Source: Marinilabilia rubra (GTDB lineage: Bacteria; Bacteroidota; Bacteroidia; Bacteroidales; Marinilabiliaceae). From it: a DNA stretch of 34,791 nucleotides. The translations under genes were made by a program, and so were the position numbers. The stretch lies in NCBI RefSeq assembly GCF_003121985.1, contig NZ_QEWP01000030.1:1-34791 (forward strand), in the 5' to 3' direction. The notes beneath the pieces are model-generated. The model had not been told where the DNA came from. It saw nothing but the letters and a program-made list of their open reading frames with translations, and searched no databases. Below are positions 9,195 to 27,149 of the stretch, piece after piece. Numbering within the stretch: position 1 is the stretch's first letter; each line of letters starts with the position of its first letter.

Positions 9195-10658
9195 ATGAAC
9201 ATCCTACTTGTCTATAGTATTCAAAAATCTATTGCCCCTAAAAAACCTCTTAAAGGAAATGAAGATGTCCAACTGGGGTTGGCTCAAATTTCAGCAGTTC
9301 TTAAAGAGGAAGGCCACAATACATCGCTTCTTGTTATTGACAGGAAAAACGATAACAACAAAACCATCGAAACAACAATAAATGATTTTTCTCCGGGGAT
9401 GGTCTGCTACACCGCTGTGGATACAGAATTCGAATTTATCAAAAAAACAGCAAAAGAGATCAAAGACAAATTTGGTCTTTTTTCAGTATTAGGAGGAGTT
9501 CATGTAACCCTTAACCCAAACGAAAGCTATTTGGATATTTTTGATATTCTCTGTATTGGGGAAGGCGAATATGCTCTTCTTGAATTGGCTTCAAAAATTG
9601 AAAAACAAGAGGATTATTCTCAAATTTCGAATCTTTGGGTTAAAAAAGCACCAGGAACCATTGTAAAAAACCCGACAAGACCATTTATTCAAAATCTGGA
9701 TTCCCTCCCATTTCTTGACAGAGAAATATGGGCTCCATGGATATTGGAAAAAAACTCTAAACTCACCATATTGCTCGGAAGAGGATGCCCTTATAATTGT
9801 ACATATTGCTGTAATCATAAGCTTAAAAAAATTGCAAACGGAGGGTATGTTCGTATGCGTTCCCCAGAGAATATCATTGCAGAAATCGAAGAATTAGCCA
9901 AAAAATATCCGGCTGTAAATACCTATTTTCTTGAAATAGAAACACTCGGCTCAGACCTGAAATGGCTCAGACAACTATGCAAATCTCTGGAACACTTTAA
10001 CCGTAAAAGACCTACTCCGTTCAATTTTGAAGCAAATTTACGGATTTATAAAAATCTGGATTTAGATGGTACTTTTAGTAACTTAAAAAGGGCAGGTTTT
10101 TCAGCAATAACCATTGGTTTGGAATCCGGTAGTGAAAGAATCAGATCCGAGGTATTAAAAAGGTTTTATTCTAATAATAAAATAATTGAGGCCGTCAAAA
10201 AAGCGAGGGAATATGGAATTAAAGTAGGTATCTTCAATCTGATTGGTTTACCTACCGAAACTTACCATGATTTTCTTGAAACCCTGCATTTAAATCAAAT
10301 AATACAACCAGACTGGCATGCTACCTCAATTTTTTTCCCTTATGAGGGTACGCAACTCCATGAAACAGCATTCAATCTGGGAATCCTCCCTAAAAAACTA
10401 TCAAGTACCAATGAGAGGCAGAAAGCAGTTTTAGACCTCCCGGGTTTTCCCCAAAAACAAATTCAACGGGAATTTGATAATTTTCACTTTAATGTTTACA
10501 CCAAGAAAGCTCATCCAAACCCGGTAAAACTTCTTTTGTTTTTCATTCAAAAATACGTGGGGCACAACACCATGGCCAACATAAAGAATCAACTCATAAA
10601 ATTAAACTACCGGTTGGGTCTGGAAACAAAACTGCTAAACATTATTCAAAAACTCTAA
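9195..10658 (+). CDS. B12-binding-type radical SAM protein
   Basis: A 487-aa protein with an N-terminal cobalamin-binding-like Rossmann domain (about 1-150, with LGGVHVTLNPNES and CIGEGE motifs) and a radical SAM core. The iron-sulfur cysteines form the canonical CxxxCxxC at C198, C202 and C205, with an additional adjacent C206. The SAM-binding strand and TIGLESGSERIR (about 310-325) follow the family pattern. Such class B enzymes typically methylate unreactive carbons or build lipids and cofactors, using cobalamin, SAM and an Fe4S4 cluster. The classical DxHxxG cobalamin motif is not seen, which is common in this group. The gene stands alone, so the context does not suggest a substrate, and I cannot name a subfamily. 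Family call strong, function unknown. Confidence 0.85.
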   Translation: MNILLVYSIQKSIAPKKPLKGNEDVQLGLAQISAVLKEEGHNTSLLVIDRKNDNNKTIETTINDFSPGMVCYTAVDTEFEFIKKTAKEIKDKFGLFSVLGGVHVTLNPNESYLDIFDILCIGEGEYALLELASKIEKQEDYSQISNLWVKKAPGTIVKNPTRPFIQNLDSLPFLDREIWAPWILEKNSKLTILLGRGCPYNCTYCCNHKLKKIANGGYVRMRSPENIIAEIEELAKKYPAVNTYFLEIETLGSDLKWLRQLCKSLEHFNRKRPTPFNFEANLRIYKNLDLDGTFSNLKRAGFSAITIGLESGSERIRSEVLKRFYSNNKIIEAVKKAREYGIKVGIFNLIGLPTETYHDFLETLHLNQIIQPDWHATSIFFPYEGTQLHETAFNLGILPKKLSSTNERQKAVLDLPGFPQKQIQREFDNFHFNVYTKKAHPNPVKLLLFFIQKYVGHNTMANIKNQLIKLNYRLGLETKLLNIIQKL

Positions 10659-10843: not shown

Positions 10844-11566
10844 TCACCTCATAAATTTCTCACGTTTCTGTAAATTAAGCAATCCCCATAATAAAGCCAC
10901 CGCCGAAACAATCATCATATAGGTACGGTTGCGTACCACCGAAAGATCCCATACAACGGTGCTGGTATCGGATGGCATATCAAAAGGATTAAAAAACACA
11001 CTCCATACTGCCATGGAGAGATTATCTGTTAAGAGTTCCATAAACCAGGCAATAAGGGCCAGTATTACCACTACAACGGCAGCGCCATGCCCGTTTCGGA
11101 TAATAGTGGAAAAAAAGAACCCAACTGTTCCAAAAAAGGTAACCGGAATCATCAGTTGAAATGACAACCGAAGACTATTGTGGCGTAGCAGAATAAAGTA
11201 ATCCAGAAATGACAGTATGAGAAGTACTCCCCAAACCATCAGTAAAATAATCAACATTCTTATCATCCAGACTTTAAACCTGTAATTGGGAATGCTAAAA
11301 AGGATTTCCAGAATACGGGCGTCTTCATCATTCTGAATACCATACACAGTAGGAAAGAAAACCAGCAAAAGAGCCGGAAAAAGTAATTGATAATACAGTG
11401 ACGACAATTCCGGTAACGAGGAGGAAAACAAACTAATCCCGGTTATCAGAAAGAAAAAAATGAGACTTCCTCCCAAGAAATAAACAAATTTACTTCCAAA
11501 GATAACCTGGATATTGTAACGGATCATCAATGGAATTATTTGAGCCAATTGACTATCTTTTTTCAT
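10844..11566 (-). CDS. ABC-2 type permease, small
   Basis: A 240-aa integral membrane protein with six hydrophobic segments (roughly residues 23-45, 58-77, 98-125, 135-153, 158-178 and 215-232), the size and layout of an ABC-2 membrane subunit. The sequence NDEDARILEILFSIPNYRFKVWMIR between segments 2 and 3 resembles the cytoplasmic coupling region of this family (ER..GT.E.L...P in relatives). It has no ATPase of its own; the nearest candidate is the ATPase domain at the C-terminus of the RND-ABC fusion encoded just upstream, 143 bases away on the same strand. It is likely the last gene of the exporter locus and would act in the inner membrane. Substrate unknown. Confidence 0.8.
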   Translation of the reverse strand: MKKDSQLAQIIPLMIRYNIQVIFGSKFVYFLGGSLIFFFLITGISLFSSSLPELSSLYYQLLFPALLLVFFPTVYGIQNDEDARILEILFSIPNYRFKVWMIRMLIILLMVWGVLLILSFLDYFILLRHNSLRLSFQLMIPVTFFGTVGFFFSTIIRNGHGAAVVVVILALIAWFMELLTDNLSMAVWSVFFNPFDMPSDTSTVVWDLSVVRNRTYMMIVSAVALLWGLLNLQKREKFMR

Positions 11567-11709: not shown

Positions 11710-14700
11710 TTATGCCTCCCCATTATCATTATTTTTTAGCAGCCACAGATAGGAATCTTCCAATACCGCTTTTACCTGAATAGCTCTATCATCGGGTTTT
11801 TCGGAAGACAAGCACCGCAACCTTACCTTATCCCCCTGGTTCATATGGTGTATAACAGTAAATTTCGTTGTCATCTCTTCAACCTCATCAGCATTAACCT
11901 CAACCTGCCATACTTTGCCATCGGCAATAGACATCATATTGCGTGGCTCCCCCCAATAACGTAATTCACCGGTCGACATAACAGCCACCTGGTTGCAGGA
12001 ACTGGAAATATCTTCAATAATATGTGTAGAGAACACCACCACCCGCTCACGGCTAAGTTCAACCAGTAAGTTACGAAAACGAATACGTTCACGCGGATCC
12101 AGTCCGGCTGTAGGTTCGTCAACCACCAGAATTCTCGGCAGGTGCAAAAGAATCATTGCAATACCAATGCGTTGCTTCATCCCTCCTGAATAAGCTCCGA
12201 TTTTATGGTGACGGCGTTCCCACATATGAACCGATTTCAATACATATTCAACGCGATCTTCACGCTCTTCTTTAATCAGAAGGCTTTTTAATATAGCCTG
12301 ATAATTCAGGAAATCCCAGGCAGTCATATTTTCATACGTGCCAAATTCCTGAGGCAGATAACCTATGAGTCCCTGTAATTCTTCTCTGTTATGGGCAGTA
12401 TCAATCCCATTTATAAAAATCTTGCCGTAACTCTGATCCAAAATACCGCAGAGTGTACGCATAATGGTTGTTTTGCCTGCTCCATTGGGACCTAACAGAC
12501 CTATCATTCCACTGGATAACTGAAGAGAAACACCCTTCACGGCTTTAAAAGGTTCTTTGGCCGGTTTGGCAAAAGGAAACAGCATTACTCCCCTAATAAA
12601 AAGACGTCGAATACCTTTAAACCAACCGTTCAGATTTGAGGGATCAAGTTGATTGGATCGTGTTCTCTTAGCCACAACTGCAACATTCATGACCAATATC
12701 CACAGAACAAAAATGGTAATGGCTCCTCCTTTACTTTTCCAATCCTGCAGCATGAACAACAACAAAAGAACCGGATATCCAATATGCCAGACTTTTCTGG
12801 AAATATTGATAACCCAGGAACGGTTAAACCATTTCCTTTCATCATAAAATGACATCAGCCATCTATTATGATAATAAGTGGCATAACCGGAAATGAAGAA
12901 ATAAAATACAACCCAAAACACCAGTTGCCAAAAACCAGAATCCAGATAGAACAATGAAAACCAGGTAAAGAACAACAGCAATGGAATCTGCCATATCAGG
13001 CCGGCTTTCAAACTTCGCACGCTCAGAGGTTCTTCAAGAAGCTTCTTTCTCAATTTGTTTCTCTGCTTCCATTCTCTTTTAAAACGATTGGCTCTGCCAT
13101 AAACTTTGACGATGTTGCGTATATGGATACTGATTTCTTTATTATCAGGTATTAATTTGCTGTTGGCCCTCTTCAGGCTGTTAAGCGCAAACCAAATGCT
13201 CCATGGAATGCCTGCCACCACAACAATAGTAGCAATCATTTGCCACAAAACAGACCAATCGGCTCCCCACCAAATCCACCCAAAAGCGGCAACCCAAAGA
13301 GCAATCATCAATACCTTCAGGGGTTGTTTTACTGACCTGATCCAGTTCAGGGATTGCTCAAGGCCAAGCCCGAATGCCGGAACAAAGACCAAAGTAAGGA
13401 TTGAACTAAAACAAAGTCCTCCTATTACAGTAATTGCAAATGGAGCTCCAAGAGCACCAACGTATTCTCCTTCGCCAAGACTTAGCGGAAGCATTGCCAC
13501 AATGGTAGTGGTGGCAGTAATCAAGATAGGTCTTAATCTGGCCATCCCCGCTTCCATATAAGCCCTTACTGCAGAAGTACCGGAACGCCTCATCTGCATG
13601 GCATAATCGATCAAAATGATACCATTATTGACAACCACTCCCAAAAGAATTAAAAATCCGATAAAAGAATTAAAACTCAATAAAGAATTACCTGTCAGGA
13701 GCAATGCCAACATTGATCCTATGGCAGCCAGTGGAATGGTAAACAGCATAACAACCGGTGCCGTAAATGACTCAAATACGGATGCCAGAATCATAAAAAT
13801 CAACAAAATGGCCATCCCTGCCAAAAAATAATATTCTTCAGTTTTATCATCCCGCTCCAGGGATACGTTAACCCCTTCTGGTGTAACCGCTGCAAGTAAT
13901 AACTCCTCGATCTCCTTAAGAGCAATCTCCTCAAGTTCCCTGGAACCCTCAACCTCTTCTTTGAGATTAAACCTTACAACCAGCTGTTTCTCCTGATTAA
14001 CCCGATTATATTGTGCCTCACTACTTCTCAGGGCTAAATTGGCAAAAGACTCCAACCGGACCTTTTCTCCCGTTCCTGTCCTGATTTTTGTTTCTGAAAG
14101 TGCCTTCAGATCTGTAGCCTTTCTCTCCTGTGTAGAATCTGTGAGGGCATCCTCAAAAGCCAGCATTATTTTATATTCCTGATTATCGGCTTTAAAAGTT
14201 CCTCCCGACTCAACTTGCGGTGACAGTGTGGTTAACTGCGAAACTACCTGTGCCGGTTCAACGCCGTTAAGTCCCATCCAATAGGGGTCTAAATCAAGCA
14301 TTACCTCAGGCCTCTCCCAGTTTCCCTGAACCCATGCACCGTCAATGCCGGTCAGATTTTCCTTCATGAGTTCAACAATGCGATGAGCTGTTCGCACCAT
14401 ATCCTGAAAGTTTTCTCCTTCAACCACAACCTTGCGTTCTTCGCCGGCAAGTCCTAGCATAGAAAAGGCACCACCTCCTCCTCCAAATCCACCTGAACCG
14501 GAGGACCTGACATCAAAAGTAACGGCTACACCGTGCTGTCTTACCACCAACTCTTTCTCTACTTTTGATTTAACCTCAGAAAACTTCAGGTTCCGAAACT
14601 CCAGTGAATCTTTATCCACATCGATGGTCAACACAGCTCTGTCAGAATATATCTTGCTAATAAGATCCAGCGGCAAATCCAATTCCTCAACCTTTTCTTC

Positions 14701-16434
14701 CATCTGGTGAACCACCTCATCTGTCCGTTGGAGGGTAGAACCCTCACTCATGTCAACATTCACTTCAATCTGTGATCTTTCCACAGGCTTGTTTCCGGCA
14801 ATACTGAAGGTGAAGCTTACAAAAGCCACTACGAAGAAAAGGGCCAAACCACCAAGCACAAGACGTGCAGGACTTCTCAAACCCGCTTTTAATAATTGAA
14901 TATAAATCTGAACAAAATGGTTATGCAAAGGCAATCTGGACAACCTCCAACTTTGTCCTTTCTGTCTTTTGAGAATAAAATTAACGATCGTTGGGATCAA
15001 TATCAGGGCTACCAAAAGAGACACCAGTAATGTAGAAATGATAGAAACACTTACATGCCTGGCCACTTCACTTAATATCTGGTTGGAAGCAAAAACAAAA
15101 GGAAGGAATACCACGATTGTGGTAAATGTGGCAGCAGCCACAGAGCGCCATATCTGAGAAGTTCCTTTAACCACCATGTCTTCAGGATTTTTCTCCCTCC
15201 CAGCCATGCGGTATATATTCTCCATGACCACTACCCCATTGTCGATCAGCATGCCCAAAGCAAGTGCCAGGCCAATAAGTGTAAGCATATTTATGGTAAT
15301 ACCCGCAGCATAAAAGAAATTAAAGGCTCCAAACACAGAAACAGGCATGGCTACCATTACTACCGTAACCAGAGGGAGGTTTTCCAAAAACACCCATAAA
15401 ATAAATATGGCCAAAAGCCCTCCTATTAAAGCCAAATTGATGATTTGATCAATATTTTCTTCAATCTCCTCGGCGCTGTTGGACTGAATCTCAAGAGATA
15501 TTCCCTTTGGTGCAAAATCCTCATTAATAGAAGCCAATTCGGTTTTTACCTTATTTGAAAGCTCTATAAGATTTACCTGAGATTCCCTTACGAGAGACAA
15601 GGTCACCACATCTTTACCATTTACACGGCTGTAAGAATCCGGCTCCTGAAGTCCATAAGTGATTTTACCTAAATCGGAAAGCAGAAGAGGCCCCTCCTCC
15701 TTTATTACAATATCCCCAATATCTGATGGAGAAAGATATTCAGCACCGGTATTGACATAAAAACGCGTTCCGTTATCCTGAATTTCACCTACAAAAGTTT
15801 TGACTTGTTGACCGGCTCTTATTCTTTGCCGCACATCATTCATGGTCAATCCATGACTTTCCATCTCCAGACGATCAAGGGTTACGCTGATTGTTTTCTG
15901 CCGCCCTCCAAAAACCTGAACCGATGCAATGCCATCAACCGCCATAAACCGGTCATTAACCTCCTGTTCCAGTAATGTTCTTATACGATCGGCCCCGCCC
16001 TCTCCCAACACCTGAATTTGCATAAATTCGGTGTTGATTTGTTCCAGATCCACCCTGACTACTTCTGTCATGAAACCTTCAGGCAAACGATTACGAACAG
16101 CATCCACCTGCTCAGTAAGCTTCAGATAGCTGTAGCGCATATCAGCCTGTTGGGCAAAGTAAACCGAAACCATGCCTCCATCCGGCATCACTCGTGATTC
16201 TATCTTTTCTACCTTGTCAAGTCTTCCCGCAGCTCCCTCAAGAGGAATAATTGCCTCTCTTTCCACAAATTGAAGATCACGCTCAACAGGAGCCATAACC
16301 CTGATAAACAAGACAGGCAGTTCCATTGCCGGAATTAACTCTACTGATAATGAACGATAACTAATCACCCCTAACATAGTAAGGGCAACAAACAGCATGC
16401 TCACAAATACTTTTCTGTTAATCAATTGTTTCAT
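11710..16434 (-). CDS. RND efflux permease fused to an ABC ATPase (split by a membrane insertion)
   Basis: A single uninterrupted 1574-codon frame. Residues 1 to about 1025 are a full RND permease: first membrane helix at 9-28, two large periplasmic domains, and the TM4 motif LIDNG with D398 as the likely proton-relay acid (AcrB has two Asp here; the second is Asn). TM10 reads VVNNGIILID, with Asn where AcrB has Lys940. Two additional helices follow (about 1038-1056 and 1060-1082). The sequence ISIHIRNIVKVYG then looks like the first strand and A-loop (Y1112) of an ABC ATPase, but it is followed by a basic stretch and four more helices (about 1143-1255) before the ATPase resumes at F1296: Walker A GPNGAGKTT at 1315-1323, signature YSGGMKQR near 1415, Walker B VVDEPTAGLD near 1440, H-loop in STHIIED. 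It begins inside the stop of the upstream RND gene (ATGA overlap), so the two are translationally coupled. A glycine-rich loop lies near 641-655. Confidence 0.9.
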   Translation of the reverse strand: MKQLINRKVFVSMLFVALTMLGVISYRSLSVELIPAMELPVLFIRVMAPVERDLQFVEREAIIPLEGAAGRLDKVEKIESRVMPDGGMVSVYFAQQADMRYSYLKLTEQVDAVRNRLPEGFMTEVVRVDLEQINTEFMQIQVLGEGGADRIRTLLEQEVNDRFMAVDGIASVQVFGGRQKTISVTLDRLEMESHGLTMNDVRQRIRAGQQVKTFVGEIQDNGTRFYVNTGAEYLSPSDIGDIVIKEEGPLLLSDLGKITYGLQEPDSYSRVNGKDVVTLSLVRESQVNLIELSNKVKTELASINEDFAPKGISLEIQSNSAEEIEENIDQIINLALIGGLLAIFILWVFLENLPLVTVVMVAMPVSVFGAFNFFYAAGITINMLTLIGLALALGMLIDNGVVVMENIYRMAGREKNPEDMVVKGTSQIWRSVAAATFTTIVVFLPFVFASNQILSEVARHVSVSIISTLLVSLLVALILIPTIVNFILKRQKGQSWRLSRLPLHNHFVQIYIQLLKAGLRSPARLVLGGLALFFVVAFVSFTFSIAGNKPVERSQIEVNVDMSEGSTLQRTDEVVHQMEEKVEELDLPLDLISKIYSDRAVLTIDVDKDSLEFRNLKFSEVKSKVEKELVVRQHGVAVTFDVRSSGSGGFGGGGGAFSMLGLAGEERKVVVEGENFQDMVRTAHRIVELMKENLTGIDGAWVQGNWERPEVMLDLDPYWMGLNGVEPAQVVSQLTTLSPQVESGGTFKADNQEYKIMLAFEDALTDSTQERKATDLKALSETKIRTGTGEKVRLESFANLALRSSEAQYNRVNQEKQLVVRFNLKEEVEGSRELEEIALKEIEELLLAAVTPEGVNVSLERDDKTEEYYFLAGMAILLIFMILASVFESFTAPVVMLFTIPLAAIGSMLALLLTGNSLLSFNSFIGFLILLGVVVNNGIILIDYAMQMRRSGTSAVRAYMEAGMARLRPILITATTTIVAMLPLSLGEGEYVGALGAPFAITVIGGLCFSSILTLVFVPAFGLGLEQSLNWIRSVKQPLKVLMIALWVAAFGWIWWGADWSVLWQMIATIVVVAGIPWSIWFALNSLKRANSKLIPDNKEISIHIRNIVKVYGRANRFKREWKQRNKLRKKLLEEPLSVRSLKAGLIWQIPLLLFFTWFSLFYLDSGFWQLVFWVVFYFFISGYATYYHNRWLMSFYDERKWFNRSWVINISRKVWHIGYPVLLLLFMLQDWKSKGGAITIFVLWILVMNVAVVAKRTRSNQLDPSNLNGWFKGIRRLFIRGVMLFPFAKPAKEPFKAVKGVSLQLSSGMIGLLGPNGAGKTTIMRTLCGILDQSYGKIFINGIDTAHNREELQGLIGYLPQEFGTYENMTAWDFLNYQAILKSLLIKEEREDRVEYVLKSVHMWERRHHKIGAYSGGMKQRIGIAMILLHLPRILVVDEPTAGLDPRERIRFRNLLVELSRERVVVFSTHIIEDISSSCNQVAVMSTGELRYWGEPRNMMSIADGKVWQVEVNADEVEEMTTKFTVIHHMNQGDKVRLRCLSSEKPDDRAIQVKAVLEDSYLWLLKNNDNGEA

Positions 16435-19400
16435 GAAGCATTGTTTAGTTTACGTCCGCTACGATCGAACAATTCATAAACACAAGGAATAACCAGCAAT
16501 GTTAGTATTGTAGAAGTAAAAAGACCGGCAATTACAGCTATGGCCAGAGGCGATCTTAAAGAGGCACTGCGCCCGATTGACAAAGCCAATGGGAATAGGG
16601 CCAGCATTGTTGTAAGAGAGGTCATTAAAATAGGTCTCAACCTGTCTCCGGCTGCCTGAATAACTGATTGTCTGAGGGGCAAACCGGCAAGCTTGTATTG
16701 ATTAATAGCATCCACTAAAATTATAGAATCATTAACCGCAATACCTCCCAGCATAACCACACCGATGAAGGCCATAACATTAAAAGAAATACCCAGAATC
16801 CAGAAGGTGATAATGGTTCCAACTCCGGCCAACGGGATTGTAAGAAGAATGGTGAAGGGATGAATCAGAGATTCAAACTGAGCTGCCATAACCATATATA
16901 CCAAAACCACAGAAAGAATGAGTGCAAACATCAGCTGAGAAAATGATTCCTTCCGGCGCTGTTCATCTCCGGTAACCAATACCCGGTAACCTGGCGGAAT
17001 GGCCATTGAAGCCACTTTCTCTTCAACCTGATCCACTATTTTATCATAAGGTTTTTCACCGGAAACTCCGGCATAAATTTTCCCGACACGCATCTGATTG
17101 TTCCTCAGAATTTGGCCAGGCTCATAGCCTACCAGTATTGTGGCAAGTTCATTCAACCTGTACTTCTTGTCCCCATCTATGATTTTGAGATTTTTCAAAT
17201 CACTGATATTCAGTTTCTCATTGGAAACTTTGATATCGGTCCGGCTTCCACCTTTCTCCAAAGACCCAGCTTCCTGCTCTTTCAACACAGCCTCAACCTG
17301 GGAAATAATTCCCGGGATATCGAGTCCCAACATTCCAGCCTTCAAACGATCAATGCGAATGTCTACTTCAGGGGCTTCCTCTTCAAAAGACGTATATACA
17401 TTCAACAAATCCGGATCATGACTAAGAACCCCTGCAATTTCTGAAGTAGTTGTTTTCAATACATCCATGTCTGCTCCTCTTATTTCCAAAACAAAAGGTG
17501 CATTTTCATCCCGAACCAGGACTTTAAGGGCAGGCTCTGTATGTTGGAAATGAAGTTCAAGTCCGGGGACATTGTCAAACAAACGGTCCAAACCGGCTAT
17601 GGTCTGACGGGAAAGAGAGCTGGAAAAATTTGAAAAAGCAATTTTCAGAAACCCTTCATTCTCCCCGCGTGAAAAAGACTGTCCTGACTCAGTAACAGAG
17701 GGTCCGGAATGTGCATATACCCACCTGAGAGCATCCGCAGGCAAAAGACGTCGAATGGATTTCTCCATAGCGTTCAGGGTCTTGTCGGTTCTTTCAAGCC
17801 TGGTTCCCGGGGGCAATGTGACCTCGATCTCAAGTTCATCAGATGATGCTTCGGGAAGAAATGAAGATCCCACCAGGGGGATTAACATGTAACTGCCTCC
17901 CATAAGCACCAAAGCAAACAATAGAACCACCCCTTTTCTGTTTAATGCTTTTTCCAGAAAATTTTGATAGAAACCATGATTCCGGGGACTTTCTGAAGCC
18001 GGTTTTTGTTTTCGCTTAATCAGCCTGGTACTTAAAAGGGGCACTACCATCAGTGCAACACCAAGGGAGCAAAAAAGACTGAAAGCCACTGTCCAGGCCT
18101 GATCTTTGAAAAACTCACCTGAAATACCCTGCAAATAAACGATTGGCAGAAATACCACAACTGTAGTTAAGGTGGAGGCAAGAATGGCTCCTCCCACACT
18201 GCCGGCTCCCTCAATTGCAGCTTCCCGGGCAGACTTTCCCTGCTCCAAAAGGCGATAAATGTTTTCCAATACAATAATGGCATTATCCACCAGCATTCCT
18301 GCTCCTAAAGCAAGACCTCCGAGGGTCATCAAATTCAGTGTTAAATCGTTGAAGTACATCAATCCGAAAGTGGCCACAACAGAGAGTGGGATGGCAATAC
18401 TAACCACCATGGTAGCGCCCCAGTTACGCAGAAAAAGAAAGAGAACGACCACAGCGATAAAAATCCCGATCAAAGCACTGTCACTAACTTCCGCTATAGA
18501 AGTTTCTATAAAGTCTCCCTGGTTTTCAACAACCTCCATCTTTATACCGGGATGGTTTTTCTGAAAATCCTCCATCACCCCAAAGACCTTTCCGGTCATT
18601 TCAACGGTATTATACCGGTTTTCTTTGTACACATAAAGCCCAAGGCAATCTTGTCCGTCAATTCGCACAATACTTGATGGCCGCCCCTCAATAATGTTCA
18701 CCCCGGCCAGATCACGCAAAAGAACGGGACTTCCGGGATTCCCTGTATTTGCATCATACCCCGCCATTTTTATTACCAACTCTTCAAGATCGGATGCCTG
18801 TGAAATGACACTTGTACCTCTGACCACAAACCGCTGGCCTTTTTCTTCAATATAACCACCGCTTACATTTTGGTTAAAGCTATTGATTTTGTTTACCACC
18901 TGAGACAGGGTAACACCATAAGCCTGCAGTAATTCCGGCTCGGTAAGGACCTCTATTATTTGTTCGCGCTCGCCCGCCAGAGCAACATCTGCAACACCTT
19001 CAAGCCGCACTAAATCTGGCCGTAAATTGTTTTCAACCAGCAATCTCAACTGATTCAGATTTCCACTTAATGAATCTGAAAGCGCCATCTGAATGACAGG
19101 ATCAGCATTGGGATTAAACCGGGAAATCTGCAGTTCCTCAACATCATCGCGCGTAGAATAAGGGGAAAGCACCTTTTGGAGCTCCAGAAAAGCCTGATCC
19201 ATATCATTTTCCCAGGCATATGAAATGGTGATTTGTCCACGACCGGACATAATCCTTGATTGCACATTAACAACACCTTTCTGGCGAACAACCAAGGCCT
19301 CAATGGGTTCCACCAATTGCTTCTCAATTTCAGCCGGAGGCCGCTCACCGGCATCAATATCCACAAACAACTGCGGATTCTCAATCTCAGGCATCAGATT

Positions 19401-19505
19401 AGTGCCAAGACGGGAAAAGGAGATGAACCCAAGCAGCAATACAGCCAATACAATCATGGATACTGTTACAGGGTTCTTTATTGAAAAACGGGGTAAACTT
19501 CTCAT
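16431..19505 (-). CDS. RND efflux permease (HAE-1-like)
   Basis: A 1024-aa inner membrane antiporter subunit of the AcrB/MdtB superfamily that exports substrates in exchange for protons through a periplasmic adaptor and an outer membrane channel. Twelve helices in two halves surround two large periplasmic loops. TM4 carries VDNAIIVLENI with D407, matching AcrB Asp407; the neighbouring Asp408 is Asn. TM10 (GIAVNDSIILVD) has Asn in place of AcrB Lys940, as in many RND proteins outside the enterobacterial drug pumps. The start lies 15 bases after the adaptor stop codon, and the stop overlaps the start of the RND-ABC fusion by four bases. A pair of dissimilar RND permeases served by one adaptor recalls MdtBC, where two permeases form a mixed trimer; whether that happens here is inference. 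Confidence 0.93.
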   Translation of the reverse strand: MRSLPRFSIKNPVTVSMIVLAVLLLGFISFSRLGTNLMPEIENPQLFVDIDAGERPPAEIEKQLVEPIEALVVRQKGVVNVQSRIMSGRGQITISYAWENDMDQAFLELQKVLSPYSTRDDVEELQISRFNPNADPVIQMALSDSLSGNLNQLRLLVENNLRPDLVRLEGVADVALAGEREQIIEVLTEPELLQAYGVTLSQVVNKINSFNQNVSGGYIEEKGQRFVVRGTSVISQASDLEELVIKMAGYDANTGNPGSPVLLRDLAGVNIIEGRPSSIVRIDGQDCLGLYVYKENRYNTVEMTGKVFGVMEDFQKNHPGIKMEVVENQGDFIETSIAEVSDSALIGIFIAVVVLFLFLRNWGATMVVSIAIPLSVVATFGLMYFNDLTLNLMTLGGLALGAGMLVDNAIIVLENIYRLLEQGKSAREAAIEGAGSVGGAILASTLTTVVVFLPIVYLQGISGEFFKDQAWTVAFSLFCSLGVALMVVPLLSTRLIKRKQKPASESPRNHGFYQNFLEKALNRKGVVLLFALVLMGGSYMLIPLVGSSFLPEASSDELEIEVTLPPGTRLERTDKTLNAMEKSIRRLLPADALRWVYAHSGPSVTESGQSFSRGENEGFLKIAFSNFSSSLSRQTIAGLDRLFDNVPGLELHFQHTEPALKVLVRDENAPFVLEIRGADMDVLKTTTSEIAGVLSHDPDLLNVYTSFEEEAPEVDIRIDRLKAGMLGLDIPGIISQVEAVLKEQEAGSLEKGGSRTDIKVSNEKLNISDLKNLKIIDGDKKYRLNELATILVGYEPGQILRNNQMRVGKIYAGVSGEKPYDKIVDQVEEKVASMAIPPGYRVLVTGDEQRRKESFSQLMFALILSVVLVYMVMAAQFESLIHPFTILLTIPLAGVGTIITFWILGISFNVMAFIGVVMLGGIAVNDSIILVDAINQYKLAGLPLRQSVIQAAGDRLRPILMTSLTTMLALFPLALSIGRSASLRSPLAIAVIAGLFTSTILTLLVIPCVYELFDRSGRKLNNAS

Positions 19506-19520: not shown

Positions 19521-20615
19521 CTATAGGGTAATTCTAACCTCATTTTCAATGTTCACTTTCGATCCGTCACGCAAAGTCTCAAAACCTTCAACAACCACTT
19601 GTTCTCCCGGCTTTAAGCCATCCACAATTTCAATTCTATCCCTTCCTTCAAGGCCGGTTTGAACAATTCGCTTACGTGCCGTTTCTTTATCAACCACATA
19701 GACAAACTTCCCGCCCATCTGTGAAAGAACAACCTCGGGAGGAACAGCTAAAACACTGTCATTTTGTTCCACGACAATAGCGGCATTCACAAACATCCCG
19801 GGTCTTAATATTCCCTTCTCATTTCCTATTCCTATACGACCCTTATACGATCGGGTACTCACATCCAATGCAGGTGAAAGCTGTGTCACTTCGCCCTGAA
19901 TGGTATCCTCAGAAGATGAGTAATTGGTAATCAAGCTCCTTTGCCCCGGTTCTACTCTGCCAAAAGAACTGGCCGGAAGCGTTACATCCAAAACCAGTTG
20001 CTGATAGTTCATTATACCAATCATTTCGGCACCCTGATCAACCCGCACTCCTTGAGAATAATATGGAAGTGAAGTAATCACACCATCAATTGGGGCTTCT
20101 ACTGACATTTTATCAAGATTGATCTGGGCGTTTTCGTAGTTTTTACGGGCGGAAACCAGATTGCGCTCGGCATTTACCAGCTCCCTTTTAGTTACCCCCC
20201 CTTTTTCATATAATGCATTCTGCTTCACATATTCCTGCTCAGAAATTTCCAGGTTGAGACGTTCTCCTTCAATGTTGGTGGTATTCCGATAAGCCTTATC
20301 CTCCAGTTTAATAATGACTGCTCCTTTTCGTACCTTATCACCCATTTTAAATAACTCACCGGTTTGCGGGTTTCGCTGCAAATAATACTCTCCGGGCATT
20401 TCACTTTTCAGAACAACAGAACCTGCAGGCATCAAATCCCCGGTTACGGTTACCATTTCCTGAATAGATTGGGGAGAAAGCTTTTGAACCGTTACATCAA
20501 CGGCAACATCCATATTAAAACGCTGGTTTCTGTTGCCACAGGCGCAAAAAACCAGTGTCATTAAAATTGCAATGGCGGATAGTCTCATGGTATATAGATA
20601 TTTATTATATTTCAT
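19521..20615 (-). CDS. RND periplasmic adaptor (membrane fusion protein), probable lipoprotein
   Basis: A 364-aa adaptor bridging RND permeases to the outer membrane channel. The N-terminus has a hydrophobic signal (about 11-25) ending in VFCAC, a plausible lipobox with C26 as lipid-bearing cysteine. Then come the first half of a lipoyl-like domain, a coiled-coil hairpin around 115-170 (YVKQNALYEKGGVTKRELV...), the second half with APIDGVITSLPYYSQGVRVDQG, a beta-barrel domain, and a membrane-proximal domain (VVEGFETLRDGSKV). Its ATG shares one base with the stop of the outer membrane factor gene (TAATG), which supports this start and translational coupling, although ATG at residue 10 would also give a good signal peptide. 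Gene order and length fit the AcrA/MdtA family. Confidence 0.93.
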   Translation of the reverse strand: MKYNKYLYTMRLSAIAILMTLVFCACGNRNQRFNMDVAVDVTVQKLSPQSIQEMVTVTGDLMPAGSVVLKSEMPGEYYLQRNPQTGELFKMGDKVRKGAVIIKLEDKAYRNTTNIEGERLNLEISEQEYVKQNALYEKGGVTKRELVNAERNLVSARKNYENAQINLDKMSVEAPIDGVITSLPYYSQGVRVDQGAEMIGIMNYQQLVLDVTLPASSFGRVEPGQRSLITNYSSSEDTIQGEVTQLSPALDVSTRSYKGRIGIGNEKGILRPGMFVNAAIVVEQNDSVLAVPPEVVLSQMGGKFVYVVDKETARKRIVQTGLEGRDRIEIVDGLKPGEQVVVEGFETLRDGSKVNIENEVRITL

Positions 20616-22102
20616 TAATATTCACTCATATCAGGCACTATACTCATTTGATTTTCAAAATCATAAAGTGTCTGAATTTTCATATTCAACAACTCCAGCA
20701 TATAGTTTATTCTGGCTCTTGTGAGTGATGTTTTTTTCTGAGTCAGCTGATTTTGATATAGATTAAGATCCATACTTGTCAGGTCTCCGTTTTTATATTT
20801 TTCAAGATTGATTTCATAAGTCAGTCGGGCATTTTCAAGATTTTTTTGGGCAATATCAATCTGGGTAAGAAGGTTTTTCAAACTCCTGTGAACCTGACGT
20901 ATGGTAAGTGAGATATTGATTTTTTCATCATCGAGATTTATTTCCCTTATTTTCTGTGCAGCTTTGGCCGCACGCATGCGTGCTTTTTTCTCTCCCCAAT
21001 CCCAAAGCGGGATTTCCAAAGAAAAACCAATATTCTGGTTATCTGTAGGTTTGTCAAAAACTCCGGTAAATTCTTCATTCTCGCCAAACAATCCAACTGA
21101 AATGCCAATATTTCCTTTAAACTCATTCATCGCATTGGTACGAACCAACTCAAACTGCCCTGTTTCAATGTCAATTTTTCGTTGGCGTATTTCAAGGCGG
21201 TTATCAACGGCCAGCTTCATGGCTTTCTGCAACTCAATGTCAACAGGTAGAACGTTTACTTCTCCCAACAACAGCACCTCTTCTTCGAGGGGCATACCAA
21301 GCATTTGCTTAAACTGATCTTTTAGATTGGCTAAATCCACTTCCTGATTCTGATAATTCGACCGGCTGGTCATCAAATCAAGTTCAGCCTGCAACAGCTC
21401 CTCTTTTGCCACCAGCCCGGCTTCAACCTTATTTCGAATTATCGCCACACTTTGGGAGCGGTTTTCAAATTCTTCCCTTGCCGTATTTAAAGTCATCTGG
21501 GCTTCATAAACCTGGTAAAAAGCCTGAGATACCTGACGTTCAAGGCTAAGTTCCTGTAGTGCGTAACCGATTTTTGAATTCTCCAAACGATACTCCAGCT
21601 CTTTTAATTCAAGTTTTGTGCGATTGTAAGTAAACAAAGGCTGATCTAAATTGAGAGAGATCCTGTTACTAAACCCCTTAAACGGATCGCCACTGAAGGA
21701 ACTGTTACTTTGGGAATCCTGGTATCTTAAGCTGTTGCTTAGTGTCAACACCCCATCAGTCATAACAATGGGTTGCTGAACGCTGAATGTGCCGTAACTG
21801 TTAAGACTTTCGGTGGTATACCATTCTGACAACGGATCATTGTATTGCCGGTTATGACCATACTCTATAGGCGTTAGATTTAACCGAAAACCGGACTTCA
21901 ACGAAGCTCTTCGGGCTATAAGATTTTCCCTGCTTTGCTCCAGGTTTAATCTTGCCTTTTTTATTTCCGGACTTTCCTGCCTGGCATATTCCAGTGCTTT
22001 TTCAAGATTCAGAACTTGCTGAGACCAGCTCTCAGAAACTGAAAAAACCGCTAAAAACATTAGCAGAAAAAGATTAACAGTAATTTTTCGCACAAAACTC
22101 AT
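20615..22102 (-). CDS. TolC-family outer membrane factor
   Basis: A 495-aa protein with a cleavable signal peptide (hydrophobic run 9-24, likely cleavage after SWS/Q near 28). The body shows two repeats of long amphipathic helices, the OEP pattern: LEKALEYARQESPEIKKARLNLEQSRENL at the start of repeat one and LAVDNRLEIRQRKIDIETGQFEL at the start of repeat two, each followed by alternating-pattern strands for the barrel. It should form the trimeric tunnel through the outer membrane for the RND permeases encoded next. It opens the tight four-gene group; the 162-base gap before it separates it from the ABC permease/peptidase-like gene and may hold a promoter, though I found no exact TAnnTTTG match (TATGGTTTG is close). 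Confidence 0.92.
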   Translation of the reverse strand: MSFVRKITVNLFLLMFLAVFSVSESWSQQVLNLEKALEYARQESPEIKKARLNLEQSRENLIARRASLKSGFRLNLTPIEYGHNRQYNDPLSEWYTTESLNSYGTFSVQQPIVMTDGVLTLSNSLRYQDSQSNSSFSGDPFKGFSNRISLNLDQPLFTYNRTKLELKELEYRLENSKIGYALQELSLERQVSQAFYQVYEAQMTLNTAREEFENRSQSVAIIRNKVEAGLVAKEELLQAELDLMTSRSNYQNQEVDLANLKDQFKQMLGMPLEEEVLLLGEVNVLPVDIELQKAMKLAVDNRLEIRQRKIDIETGQFELVRTNAMNEFKGNIGISVGLFGENEEFTGVFDKPTDNQNIGFSLEIPLWDWGEKKARMRAAKAAQKIREINLDDEKINISLTIRQVHRSLKNLLTQIDIAQKNLENARLTYEINLEKYKNGDLTSMDLNLYQNQLTQKKTSLTRARINYMLELLNMKIQTLYDFENQMSIVPDMSEY

Positions 22103-22264: not shown

Positions 22265-25200
22265 TTAGTTCTTAATCCATTTTACGGCATCGGCCACCAC
22301 ATAAGGGAAATCCGATTTATCAGACAATTCAACAACGGCATCTCCTTCATCTAAATAAAACCGTCCTAAAGAAACCCAGCCATTGCGCTCCCTGACAGGT
22401 GGTGTATCCACTTCGTCCTTTCCGTTAGCATGAAAAACCGTATATTTAAAACTTCCTTTAGAATTTCGGTTTCTCCAACCTACATCCAGGTTAACAGGAA
22501 TATAAACCTGAACCTCGTAACTCCCCGATTCCGAAATACGACCTGTCCATCTGGCACGATCCTCCCCGTTCCCTGATGCTTTTAGAGATGCAGACCTTAG
22601 GTATTCACCAAAATACTTATCACCAAGAGAGGAAATCCAAACAGGCTGAGGACTCCAATGCCGAAAACGGACATAATCCTTAACCTTCTCACTTTCTTGC
22701 TGTATCCACCAGTCTTTGAGTGTTCTGATTTCATCACGGCTGTCGATTAAAAAGCCGGGGTCTTCATTATCCACTATGAAGGTGTTTTGCTCATCTGAAC
22801 GCTCAACAATTGAATCTACGTTAAAAACACCTTCTTCTATATTTTCCTGTCCCTTATATTCGAAATTTTCAAGAGTAAATGAGTAAAAGGGAGGAATATT
22901 ACGTGCTACACCCGTATTAACTTCAAGTTCCCTTGGCAATTCGTCATAAACCATGTCAATTCGGACTTTTGACCGGGCTGGAACCACATAAGTTTTTAAA
23001 GCAACATTTTCTTCATTCTCAACATTCTGATACATCCATTGTGAGAACGATCGTCCCCGGTTTTCTGATAAATCCAAAAAGGTTACCTGCATATCCAATA
23101 CCCCGTCGGACCACCCTTCATTGTCAACCGGCAAAGAGACCATATATTGACTTTTTCCTTTTTGTCTCAGTTCTGAGGTTTGAACCGTTCCAAACTTAAA
23201 TGCCGGGAGCTGGCTTTTTTGAATCAATTCCCTGTATTTTTTTTCAGGATCGCCAGGTGTTTCAATTGCATTCAGCCATTGAGCAGGGCTACTTCGTTGA
23301 AAAGCGTAATTTTTTAAAGGATAGTGCATCCTGTCAATAAAATCTTTTTCATCTGACGCTGAAGAAATTTCAGCAAAAAACTGAACGCCGGTCAAATTTA
23401 ATATCCGTGCAATAGTATCGCCTGCATTTTTATTATTTAGCCATTGATGGAGGCTCTTATTTTTGAGGGCAAGATGCCCTTTATACTGATCGTTTTCCTG
23501 ACGCCAGGAATTCCCAAACTCTTTTCTGCTTTTTGACCGAATGGCCTCATCCAGCATTATCTGAAAAACAGGCCAACCTTTCTCCCTTATTTGATAGGCA
23601 TGAAAAAAATACAGGGGATATACCTGAATCCTGTTCCATTCGTCCATATTTCGCTCGTTGATAGATTGGAACAATTGCCATCGGGGAAATAAAAATGCAT
23701 TTCCCGCAAGGGTAACAAACATTCTGGCCTGAACTTCCTCTTCAAGAGGCTCTTCACCCTTCTGTTCAGCTTCTTCCTCAAAATCATTCCGGGTCCTGTT
23801 AATATCTAAAAACCATTTCCCCGTACCATATTCAGGCAATAAAATCATTTCAGGCTGAATATGATCTGTCCCACTTCGCCATGGTTGCAGCCATGAATAA
23901 AAATGAACAGGAACCTCAATAACTTTCAGGCGTCTAAAGGGATACTCAAGCTTTAAACGTCTTTCATATTGGTTTTTCAAATTACGAATCAAAGAGGGAA
24001 TTGTATCAGCAACCTGATCAAAATTATTTGCAATTAAGTTATTGTCAACATTTGTTGCCAATTGGTATTTTATACTATCCACAACAATTTCAGAGCTTGA
24101 GTACCGGCCGGCAACAAGCGTCAACGCATTCAGAGGCTGATCGTTAATGAATTCAACCATAGAATCGCCCACAACTGATTTTCCCTGAGAAAAAGCCTTC
24201 AGGTTGTTTTCAGAGTTGAAAGTCAGTTTGTAATTCGTAAAGTCGGGTTGCTGTCGATAGTTTTTCCAGGCCACTTTGGGATACCATCCTGACTCAGAAG
24301 TAAGTAATATAAACTCAGATTCGACAAAAGCATATTTCTTGTTGGCCACTAAAGGATCAAAACGACTTAACATCTGTCGCTTTTCCTCATCTACAAAAGG
24401 ATAAATTGTCTTATTTAGGGGACTCCCACTATATGAAATACGACAGGTAATTTCAGAATGCATTTTGCCAGGACCCCCCGTAATATCAATGTTCAGAATT
24501 CCTGATTTATGATCAAATTCAGCCTTTCCCCCGTTAACTGCTACTGCGGTTACACTAAAACCGGAGTTCAAAGCCAGCTTCAGGGAATCCGTTTCAGAGA
24601 ACAGCGAAATTTTCAAATGTGCATCGCAATCAAGGGAATTATCGATGTGTTTTACATCCAAAAAGCAGGAATCGATTTGAGCTTCAGGCAAATCAGGAAG
24701 TCCGCCTTCATTATTTCTTATTTCTTCTCTCAACACCAGTCCATTCCGTCCTTCATCAATAATACCATAAAAAAAAGAGCCCGATACCAATAAAGAAAGA
24801 ACTGCAATACCGATCAAAGCAGGTGAGCGTCGTTTGCCGCCGGGTAACCGGGGTAAAAAGAGAGTTGTTAATACAATGCCTGTGCATCCAAGAAGAACAT
24901 AACCTCCCCTTTGTTCCAGAATGGCATAGAGGTCACTGAATCCGGTAAATCCGGAATAATGAACAGGAAGAAAGAACCCCATAAAGTCCCACACCCCCCA
25001 ATGCATATTTTCCAGATAAAACAGCACTGTAGCCCCGAAACCTAAAACAAGTACAAAAGTAACTGCCTGGTTGCGCACCAAAACCATCAGTACATATGAA
25101 AAACCAAGAATAAAAATAAGTGACGGCAAAGAGTAAACGACTAAAAAGAACAAAAAAGGGCTGAGAGCAAAAGGGGTGTCAGGGGTCAATAATGTAACAA

Positions 25201-25654
25201 CCATTGACAGAATAATAACCAAAAGATTCAGTCCCCCAAAAACCATCATGGCTCCCCAGGTCTTACCCAAAACATATTGAAAGTTGGACATGGGACGGGT
25301 ATAAAAAACTTCGGTAGTATCCATTTTACGTTCACGCCCCAGGAAATCAGCAGACAGAAAAGCGGCAATAATTACCTGGGCGATGGTAAACAAGAAGAAA
25401 TTCATGTATACAATATTGCCCGGCAGGTTGCGCCCCGGCCAGGCATTTGCCCCTGCAATTCCAAGAACACCAAATAAATCAAACAGAACAAGAATGGCCA
25501 GTATCAGGATCGAAAATACACGAAACAGCCAACTGCGCCACAGAATGCGTGCTTCGAAATTCCCAACACTGGAAATATAATACAATGCAGATAAGAAAGA
25601 GGAAAACACGTTCTTTCTTTTGGGTTTTGTTGTTGTAGTTGAGTAAGGACTCAT
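22265..25654 (-). CDS. ABC-2 permease fused to an M1-peptidase-like domain without HExxH and a golvesin-like C-terminal domain
   Basis: A 1129-aa membrane protein. Residues about 30-300 hold six to seven hydrophobic segments of an ABC-2 permease, including the FLGRERKMDTTEVFYTRPMS coupling region; a further helix lies near 283-303. The large following domain (about 315-830) has the layout of M1 aminopeptidase-like domains known as ABC permease fusions (for example QPEMILLPEYGTGKW), but no HExxH zinc motif exists anywhere in the protein, so it is probably not a peptidase. The final ~115 residues (SGSYEVQVYIP, WVSLGRFYLDEGDAVVELSD, VVADAVKWIKN) match my knowledge of golvesin/xanthan-lyase C-terminal domains, which bind carbohydrate-like surfaces or stabilise partners. 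The ATPase upstream (26016-26909) is the obvious partner, although 361 bases separate them. Domain labels after residue 315 are recognised by motif, not by search. Confidence 0.8.
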   Translation of the reverse strand: MSPYSTTTTKPKRKNVFSSFLSALYYISSVGNFEARILWRSWLFRVFSILILAILVLFDLFGVLGIAGANAWPGRNLPGNIVYMNFFLFTIAQVIIAAFLSADFLGRERKMDTTEVFYTRPMSNFQYVLGKTWGAMMVFGGLNLLVIILSMVVTLLTPDTPFALSPFLFFLVVYSLPSLIFILGFSYVLMVLVRNQAVTFVLVLGFGATVLFYLENMHWGVWDFMGFFLPVHYSGFTGFSDLYAILEQRGGYVLLGCTGIVLTTLFLPRLPGGKRRSPALIGIAVLSLLVSGSFFYGIIDEGRNGLVLREEIRNNEGGLPDLPEAQIDSCFLDVKHIDNSLDCDAHLKISLFSETDSLKLALNSGFSVTAVAVNGGKAEFDHKSGILNIDITGGPGKMHSEITCRISYSGSPLNKTIYPFVDEEKRQMLSRFDPLVANKKYAFVESEFILLTSESGWYPKVAWKNYRQQPDFTNYKLTFNSENNLKAFSQGKSVVGDSMVEFINDQPLNALTLVAGRYSSSEIVVDSIKYQLATNVDNNLIANNFDQVADTIPSLIRNLKNQYERRLKLEYPFRRLKVIEVPVHFYSWLQPWRSGTDHIQPEMILLPEYGTGKWFLDINRTRNDFEEEAEQKGEEPLEEEVQARMFVTLAGNAFLFPRWQLFQSINERNMDEWNRIQVYPLYFFHAYQIREKGWPVFQIMLDEAIRSKSRKEFGNSWRQENDQYKGHLALKNKSLHQWLNNKNAGDTIARILNLTGVQFFAEISSASDEKDFIDRMHYPLKNYAFQRSSPAQWLNAIETPGDPEKKYRELIQKSQLPAFKFGTVQTSELRQKGKSQYMVSLPVDNEGWSDGVLDMQVTFLDLSENRGRSFSQWMYQNVENEENVALKTYVVPARSKVRIDMVYDELPRELEVNTGVARNIPPFYSFTLENFEYKGQENIEEGVFNVDSIVERSDEQNTFIVDNEDPGFLIDSRDEIRTLKDWWIQQESEKVKDYVRFRHWSPQPVWISSLGDKYFGEYLRSASLKASGNGEDRARWTGRISESGSYEVQVYIPVNLDVGWRNRNSKGSFKYTVFHANGKDEVDTPPVRERNGWVSLGRFYLDEGDAVVELSDKSDFPYVVADAVKWIKN

Positions 25655-26015: not shown

Positions 26016-26909
26016 TTAAACATTCATCTCTGCATCAACTACTTTCTCCATAAAACAAACATAAGCATGCTCCAGGCCGGGATCAATCATTGTTGCATCC
26101 GGAGTTGGTTTATCAGATGCGATCAATTCCACTTCATAGCCTTCAACAGAGGGAATGGTTGTAATAACCGGGTGTTTTTCCTTTACCTCCTTTAATGCAT
26201 CAAACCCCACATTAGCTCTCCAAACCATCCCTTTGGCTTTATCGATAAAACTTTCGGGACCCCCCTGGTATTTGACCTTCCCTTCATCCAACAAAGCCAT
26301 ATTTCTGCAGGTACTTGAAATATCGGCTACAATATGGGTTGATAAAATGATAATCACCCCCTGCTGACTAAGATTACTCAATATATTGCGGAACCTTATC
26401 CGTTCTTCAGGATCTAAGCCGGTAGTAGGTTCATCAACAATAATAAGCTTTGGGTCGCCAATGAGAGCTTGTGCAATCCCTAATCGTCTTTTCATTCCTC
26501 CGGACAATTTATTGGCAAATCTGTCCCTGGCATTGGTAAGGCCCACCTGGTGCAGCATTTTCTCAACCTCGGCGCGTCGTTCTTTTTTACTCCTGATACC
26601 TGCAAGAGAAGCTGCATAATCTAAAAATTCCCATGATTTCAGTTTTGGGAAGAAGCGAAAATCCTGCGGAAGATACCCTAATATTTGTCGGATTTCCTTC
26701 CTGTGAGAAGAAAGCGAAAGCCCATCAATAGTTACCTCACCGGAAGAAGGTTCCTGCAAAGTCACCAGGGTCCGCATCAAAGTAGATTTCCCTGCACCAT
26801 TGGGCCCCAACAATCCGAACATTCCTTCTTCTAAGAAAAGATTAACGTCCTGTAAAGCCCGATGGCCATTCCTATAGGTTTTATTTAACAATTTAATATC
26901 TAATTCCAA
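26016..26909 (-). CDS. ABC-2 type transporter ATP-binding protein
   Basis: A 297-aa cytoplasmic ATPase subunit. A-loop aromatic in NKTYRNG, Walker A GPNGAGKST near residue 35-43, Q-loop in GYLPQDFRFF, signature LSGGMKRRLGIAQAL near 138, Walker B LIIVDEPTTGLD near 160, and H-loop in STHIVADIS. It has the C-terminal extension usual for ABC-2 ATPases. Its likely partner is the permease/peptidase-like fusion encoded next on the same strand. It is visibly related to the ATPase part of the RND-ABC fusion: both share GLDPxERIRFRN and STHIxxDISSxC, pointing to duplication within the locus or shared ancestry. It is the first gene of the minus-strand locus and diverges from a sensor kinase. Confidence 0.93.
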   Translation of the reverse strand: MELDIKLLNKTYRNGHRALQDVNLFLEEGMFGLLGPNGAGKSTLMRTLVTLQEPSSGEVTIDGLSLSSHRKEIRQILGYLPQDFRFFPKLKSWEFLDYAASLAGIRSKKERRAEVEKMLHQVGLTNARDRFANKLSGGMKRRLGIAQALIGDPKLIIVDEPTTGLDPEERIRFRNILSNLSQQGVIIILSTHIVADISSTCRNMALLDEGKVKYQGGPESFIDKAKGMVWRANVGFDALKEVKEKHPVITTIPSVEGYEVELIASDKPTPDATMIDPGLEHAYVCFMEKVVDAEMNV

Positions 26910-26968: not shown

Positions 26969-27149
26969 TATCAAAAAAATAAGAAATTAAACAATAAAAA
27001 AAAAGTGTACGAAATCAAACAGCCAGGTGTTCGCTATCGAACAAAAGAACAAGTTTGTCTATTGGAATAAAAGTGGCTTGGACTAATGCTAAAAAATACC
27101 TACTTTTAGTTCCATTAAATTGATAATTGAGGGATCCTTACTTCTATTT

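Follow-up and report, generated by a model that had tools for sequence, protein, structure and literature searches.

It is customary to regard RND pumps and ABC exporters as separate means of powering export, and the locus of Marinilabilia rubra analysed here raises the question of whether both can be joined in a single polypeptide, and what such a protein would do in the cell envelope. A preliminary description of the window, that is, of the whole stretch of 34,791 nucleotides, had reported an RND permease that continues in one unbroken frame into an ABC ATPase. This frame, whose coordinates had been given correctly but without its strand, lies on the minus strand (11710..16434); it opens with an ATG at 16434, ends at 11710 and encodes 1574 amino acids with no internal stop, and its start codon shares four bases (ATGA) with the stop codon of the RND gene upstream, here termed RND1. 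Both parts of the product, an RND permease (RND2) and an ABC ATPase, are recognized by Pfam models above the curated cut-offs: ACR_tran covers residues 3-1021 as a full-length match (E 3.3e-150; 502 bits vs a cut-off of 28), and ABC_tran covers residues 1300-1443 (E 2.7e-27; 96 bits). The C-terminal motifs, which indeed score as an ABC ATPase, are found where they had been placed, with Walker A (GPNGAGKTT) at residues 1315-1323, the signature SGG starting at residue 1416 and the Walker B residues DE at 1439-1440; the H-loop histidine is H1471.

The RND permease part (residues 1-1021; 13372..16434, minus strand) shows 12 family-mean hydrophobic peaks, all of them at or before residue 1018, which corresponds to the RND layout of 12 helices in two halves. 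Residues 3-1028 also match the phage-protein family phrog_7301 (a profile of 1035 positions) with an E-value of 4.3e-166, so that a similar RND has evidently been filed among phage proteins. Beyond the permease, two extra membrane helices (13165..13326, minus strand) form a tether, which AlphaFold2 places at residues 1037-1057 and 1060-1090 and family-mean hydropathy at 1038-1056 and 1066-1084. Family means were used for such assignments since helix counts from the hydropathy of individual sequences were too noisy. The C-terminal portion (residues 1295-1574; 11713..12552, minus strand) comprises most of the ABC ATPase and a C-terminal extension, as indicated by Pfam, the AlphaFold2 model, Foldseek and motif conservation. 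Eight catalytic positions in the A-loop, Walker A, Q-loop, signature, Walker B and H-loop, among them the A-loop tyrosine Y1112, are invariant in all 51 fusions aligned. The best ABC model in NCBIfam is drrA (residues 1296-1530), with a score of 168 bits that falls below the cut-off of 312, and a Foldseek search with the ATPase model returned TM_1403 (4yer) as top match and NosF, LptB and ABCA proteins among the lower ones. The fused ATPase is thus of the DrrA/NosF type, though no certified DrrA.

The ABC domain of this protein is not contiguous. In ordinary ABC ATPases (50 sequences), the first strand ends in the A-loop tyrosine and the second strand follows a few residues on, while in the fusion of the window the second strand lies at about residues 1296-1306 and no first strand directly precedes it. 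We therefore slid a 12-column first-strand matrix, built from these 50 unrelated ABC proteins, over the region between RND and Walker A in 51 fusions. Its optimum fell on residues 1101-1112 of the window protein (ISIHIRNIVKVY; 13099..13134, minus strand), which end in Y1112, or on the equivalent residues in 48 of the 51; in the other three (L046, L156 and L159) another place scored higher. The window score of 10.3, compared with an average of 26.3 for the training proteins, was equalled by none of 200 shuffles, while shuffles reached the weak scores of L064, L150 and L048 in 54, 48 and 21 of 200 cases, respectively. From the A-loop position to the second strand, the 51 aligned fusions span 110-226 residues. 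The junction had previously been placed at about 13,100-13,370, which is the right place; the ABC domain, however, begins earlier than had been assumed, at residue 1101, and is then interrupted. None of the 10 Pfam matches to the C-terminal 553 residues of the window protein starts upstream of the second strand, and the first 25 of 32 families matched by the C-terminal parts of 25 members are mostly P-loop families, with rare exceptions in one to three members. Eleven loci from a scan of named genomes (see below), in which the match to the query did reach upstream of the second strand, turned out to be plain ABC genes of 294-343 residues and were rejected as fusions.

The structural model is consistent with this split. 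As MAFFT misaligned ordinary ABC proteins at their first strand, these sequences were trimmed to start after it; in the resulting 66-row input, anything before the second strand is present only in the six fusion rows, on which the modelled first strand therefore rests. The model has a mean pLDDT of 83.8 (an earlier input of the six fusion sequences alone reached 55.9 and was set aside) and predicts a strand at residues 1103-1112, with a block pLDDT of 96, and the second strand at 1296-1306; the pairing of the two strands is suggested by this strand assignment and by the fold matches. Between them lies the insert (residues 1113-1294; 12553..13098, minus strand), with four predicted membrane helices at 1139-1163, 1167-1197, 1205-1231 and 1235-1261 that coincide with four family-mean hydropathy peaks. 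Per block, pLDDT ranges from 65 to 85 in the tether, a moderate confidence, and varies between 48 and 92 across the insert. The insert measures about 182 residues in the window and 164-182 in 47 of the 51 fusions; two have 209 and 226 residues and two have 110. The latter (L141 and L142) appear on reading to contain one membrane hairpin rather than two, and in L040 and L143 a long low-complexity stretch precedes the membrane helices of the insert. With two helices in the tether and four in the insert, or one hairpin in the shortest inserts, helix numbers are even, so that the ATPase would remain cytoplasmic. Sequence and model thus agree that a membrane insert separates the first strand of the ABC domain from the second.

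What could such a protein be used for? Its gene belongs to a seven-gene operon, the order of which is ABC ATPase, ABC-2/golvesin permease, TolC, adaptor, RND1, fusion and a 240-residue ABC-2 permease. The genes share one strand (minus in the window) wherever they are present in 50 homologous loci, which were picked by a match to the linker or the C-terminus. All seven were found in 37 of these loci, 12 are cut by the end of a contig or stretch, and one (L057) differs. The operon includes a TolC-family outer membrane protein (20615..22102; OEP, E 2.4e-50), a periplasmic adaptor or membrane fusion protein (19521..20615; HlyD_D23 and RND_mfp) and the 1024-residue permease RND1 (16431..19505; ACR_tran, E 1e-216). 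The RND of the fusion is hence encoded together with an adaptor and an outer membrane channel, as in HAE-1 RND operons, and RND1 and RND2 are adjacent and fall into separate clades. Some loci are less compact: L046, L051 and L059 have extra ORFs between operon members, and several loci show gaps of some hundred bases within the operon. In L057 (G416:C152, 580-7651), a gene that reads as S8-protease-like replaces RND1 upstream of the fusion, which, on a contig of 8.2 kb, may reflect a rearrangement or a misassembly.

The operon furthermore encodes a second ATPase and two permeases of the ABC-2 type. The separate ABC ATPase (26016..26909; ABC_tran, E 3.4e-33) is 40% identical to the fused one over 272 columns, and both have complete motifs, while our tree did not recover the two as sisters. 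An interpretation of the locus as a defence system was discarded, as the respective models match nothing but the ATPase regions of these two proteins. The larger permease (1129 residues; 22265..25654) combines an ABC-2 part with a degenerate M1-peptidase-like region and Golvesin_C, according to Pfam scans of 34 members of its family, which at E-values up to 0.1 gave Golvesin_C in all 34, ABC2_membrane_2 in 24 and Peptidase_M1 in 16. The window's own protein has no Peptidase_M1 match at this threshold, and the HExxH of active M1 aminopeptidases occurs in just one of the 34 members. The 240-residue protein (10844..11566) is probably also of the ABC-2 type, considering its conserved position, its six hydrophobic peaks, which suggest six helices, and ABC2_membrane_3 matches at E 0.1 or better in five of 40 members scanned, the window's own protein being without a match. 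Its gene follows the fusion in 48 of the 50 loci; the exceptions are L041, which ends 120 bases past the fusion, and L057, in which the remaining 551 bases hold no such gene. This order fits the earlier suggestion that the ATPase is delivered to a neighbouring ABC-2 permease. The other earlier suggestion, that ATP serves for a coupled or alternate energising of the RND, may apply. The split ABC domain, the second RND, the second ABC/ABC-2 pair and the relay asparagines discussed below had been missed.

Several genes around the operon were recorded as well. It is flanked by a PAS histidine kinase (27120-29426) and by a hybrid two-component sensor containing a propeller region (4959-8774); next to the operon, strong matches to the kinase occur in L042-L044 and strong matches to the hybrid sensor in L042 and L044, all of them same-genus loci, and weaker matches to these flanking genes in L053, L049, L036 and L154. 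A B12-binding radical SAM gene (9195-10658) adjoins the operon on the other strand and was not seen beside it in the 50 loci examined. Further away are two phosphofructokinase-family genes (PF00365) close to each other on opposite strands (30821-32464, minus; 33209-34426, plus) and an IS200-like transposase (Y1_Tnp) at 441-896.

That the fusion is nearly always found within a seven-gene export operon suggests one machine that joins two transport systems, and we consider it rather probable that the seven products form a hybrid exporter spanning the envelope. RND1 and RND2 would assemble with the adaptor and TolC into a two-RND tripartite pump, the cytoplasmic end of RND2 bearing the two-helix tether and an ABC ATPase that is anchored by the four inserted membrane helices. 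The most likely partner of the fused ATPase would be the separate ATPase of the operon, and the pair would power both ABC-2 permeases. Through these, a substrate of hydrophobic or amphiphilic nature could reach the periplasmic side, be taken over by the attached RND pump and leave through TolC. Each operon encodes two ATPase domains and as many ABC-2 permeases, a copy number that just fits one heteromeric ABC exporter. Moreover, MdtB2C is reported as the active heterotrimer of a two-RND system (PMC12802153, in the part consulted); a trimer of this kind would contain one RND2 per pump and thus one fused ATPase, whose partner would then have to be the separate ATPase. This reading builds on the fusion itself, the ABC domain split according to sequence and model, the ATPase motifs, the TM4 aspartate of the RND and the operon order; from these we infer the pairing of the ATPases, the hand-over, its direction and the substrate class. 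Gene order points to the partner of the fused ATPase, whose most likely role would be to power the ABC-2 permease or permeases of the operon while tethered to a two-RND tripartite pump. Points against this reading are the tree, in which the two operon ATPases are not sisters, the different neighbourhood of the fusion in L057, the extra ORFs in L046, L051 and L059 and the moderate or uneven model confidence in tether and insert.

Alternatively, two independent ABC exporters might be encoded in one operon with the RND pump: the separate ATPase would work with the golvesin permease and a homodimer of the fused ATPase with the 240-residue permease, and the fusion would serve stoichiometry or localisation only. 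Each ATPase does adjoin its own permease gene and possesses complete motifs. However, the seven genes are kept in one order, which argues for one machine, and if the fused ATPase formed a homodimer, each complex would presumably have to contain two RND2 chains. We hence regard this arrangement as unlikely.

A direct energising of the RND trimer, in which ATP binding or hydrolysis by the fused domain drives or gates the pump, replacing or assisting the proton relay, and the ABC-2 permeases constitute a separate exporter, seems a rather poor prospect to us. It would agree with the covalent linkage of the ATPase to the RND membrane domain, where it is anchored by its own helices, and with the state of the relay, which in AcrB we take to be Asp-Asp-Lys (D407, D408 and K940). 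This canonical relay is incomplete in both RND subunits, as two of its three charged residues are replaced by asparagine: in RND2, N399 occurs in 45 of 50 sequences and N936 in all 51, and RND1 has N408 and N925 in 48 of 48. The TM4 aspartate, on the other hand, is retained in both (D398 of RND2 in 50 of 50; RND1 in 48 of 48), as are R966 and T973 in TM11 of RND2. Furthermore, three of the 12 other RNDs of the genome, none of the three with an ABC domain, likewise combine DN in TM4 with N in TM10, so that the asparagines alone do not demonstrate a loss of proton coupling, which weakens the notion that they mark an ATP-driven RND. An ABC ATPase requires a second ATPase to make the sandwich dimer, and the tethered domain would be no exception; the ABC-2 permease gene that so regularly follows the fusion also speaks against this explanation. 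Two other RND permeases of the genome (L006, G000:C10, 211-4596; L008, G000:C58, 1471-5793) are fusions of another kind, with ACR_tran followed by a C-terminal TolC-like part (OEP) in 1462 and 1441 residues, respectively.

That an assembly or sequencing error joined two genes can be dismissed, since the same frame occurs in genomes of numerous species from two or more classes and the RND parts and the ATPase parts form one clade each. The chain is present in frames of 1,509-1,633 residues in 48 of the 50 homologous loci, two being cut, and the union of RND and ABC in one chain, which had been called unusual, is thus real and conserved. A linker query (approximately residues 1021-1310) against overlapping samples of Bacteroidota genomes, each including the genome of origin, matched 6 of 395 genomes in the phylum sample, 21 of 61 among close relatives, 52 of 393 in the order and 3 of 247 in the class. 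A stop codon or frameshift between the two parts, which would have spoken against the fusion, was not encountered in these relatives: 44 of the 52 matching genomes of the order have an open frame of at least 1,500 amino acids, and the eight shorter frames lie at or near contig ends. Direct reading established this for G452 and G441, and match positions together with frame and contig extents for G685, G683, G705, G701 and G564, while the frame of G516 stops about 150 bases from a contig end and its C-terminal half opens another contig. The RND part alone, searched against 149 genomes of the order, gave an RND2-type match of at least 37% identity in 18 (the genome of origin included), 13 of them in frames of at least 1,536 amino acids and five in short frames. 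Four of these frames (G444, G452, G564 and G441) reach a contig end; the fifth is that of G516. A complete unfused RND2 was accordingly not seen among the 149 genomes of the RND query or the 393 of the linker query; the candidate G499 was rejected as an ordinary RND beside a weak adaptor match.

The fusion is distributed over the order of M. rubra, another family of its class (G064 and G158) and a family outside the class (G116 and G345). In a scan of named genomes, at least 80 loci were kept and at least five match across the whole tether, insert and ATPase, the full-length matches listed being Carboxylicivirga, the culturable gut commensal Parabacteroides massiliensis, Proteiniphilum and two bins of Bacteroidales. 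In our trees, the 50 RND parts form one clade with a support of 1.0 and the 51 ATPase parts one clade with a support of 0.71, which makes a single fusion event likely.

No RND-ABC fusion protein was found in the open-access literature searched, although automatic annotations in general protein databases may exist; a term search in the consulted part of the review PMC8277102 showed no such fusion, and the portion of the golvesin literature covered gave no lead. The architecture is thus real and conserved and apparently undescribed. NosDFY-type ABC-2 exporters have an ATPase fold similar to that of the fused ATPase, as seen from the NosF match; to our knowledge, however, they include no RND, and no membrane helices interrupt their ATPase. 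MdtABC and MuxABC resemble the present operon in that two different RND genes share one operon, yet we know of no ABC domain or ABC-2 permease in these systems. MdtB also keeps the three charged relay residues, according to the part of PMC12802153 consulted, whereas RND1 and RND2 carry asparagine at two of these positions. The 1129-residue permease recalls the ABC-2/M1-peptidase fusions of TC 3.A.1.145, such as Myxococcus Q1D520, in which an ABC-2 domain is likewise succeeded by an M1-like region (PMC3924187, in the excerpt consulted), but 33 of 34 members of its family are without HExxH, Golvesin_C is added and the gene is linked to RND genes.

The nearest analogue is the unlinked mycobacterial pair of MmpL7, an RND protein, and DrrABC. 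In the consulted passages of PMC11539658, loss of drr genes abolishes PDIM export and an mmpL7 mutant is said to share this phenotype, so that an RND and a DrrA-type ABC exporter are both required for one route; MmpL7 is described there as being without canonical relay residues, and the authors suggest that it is a scaffold for DrrABC, for which they state to have no direct evidence. DrrABC and the fusion have a DrrA-type ATPase with the signature SGGM in common. RND and ABC are separate proteins in MmpL7/DrrABC and one chain within a tripartite operon here, and the same passages name neither a TolC nor a second RND, both of which the present operon encodes.

The anatomy of the fusion is well supported, and the way it works is inferred from this anatomy and from the operon. 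We tentatively propose that it may represent a new transporter class, in which an ABC motor, with its ABC domain built around a membrane insert that separates the first two strands, is covalently attached to an RND pump and ATP and the proton gradient are used together across the envelope. Judging from the split domain, a membrane module beside the adenine-binding loop seems compatible with the ABC fold. As RND and ABC are fused and conserved, their cooperation would be addressable by single point mutations in one protein. That two or more classes of Bacteroidota have kept the fusion bears on the physical RND-ABC cooperation that has been proposed for MmpL7/DrrABC.
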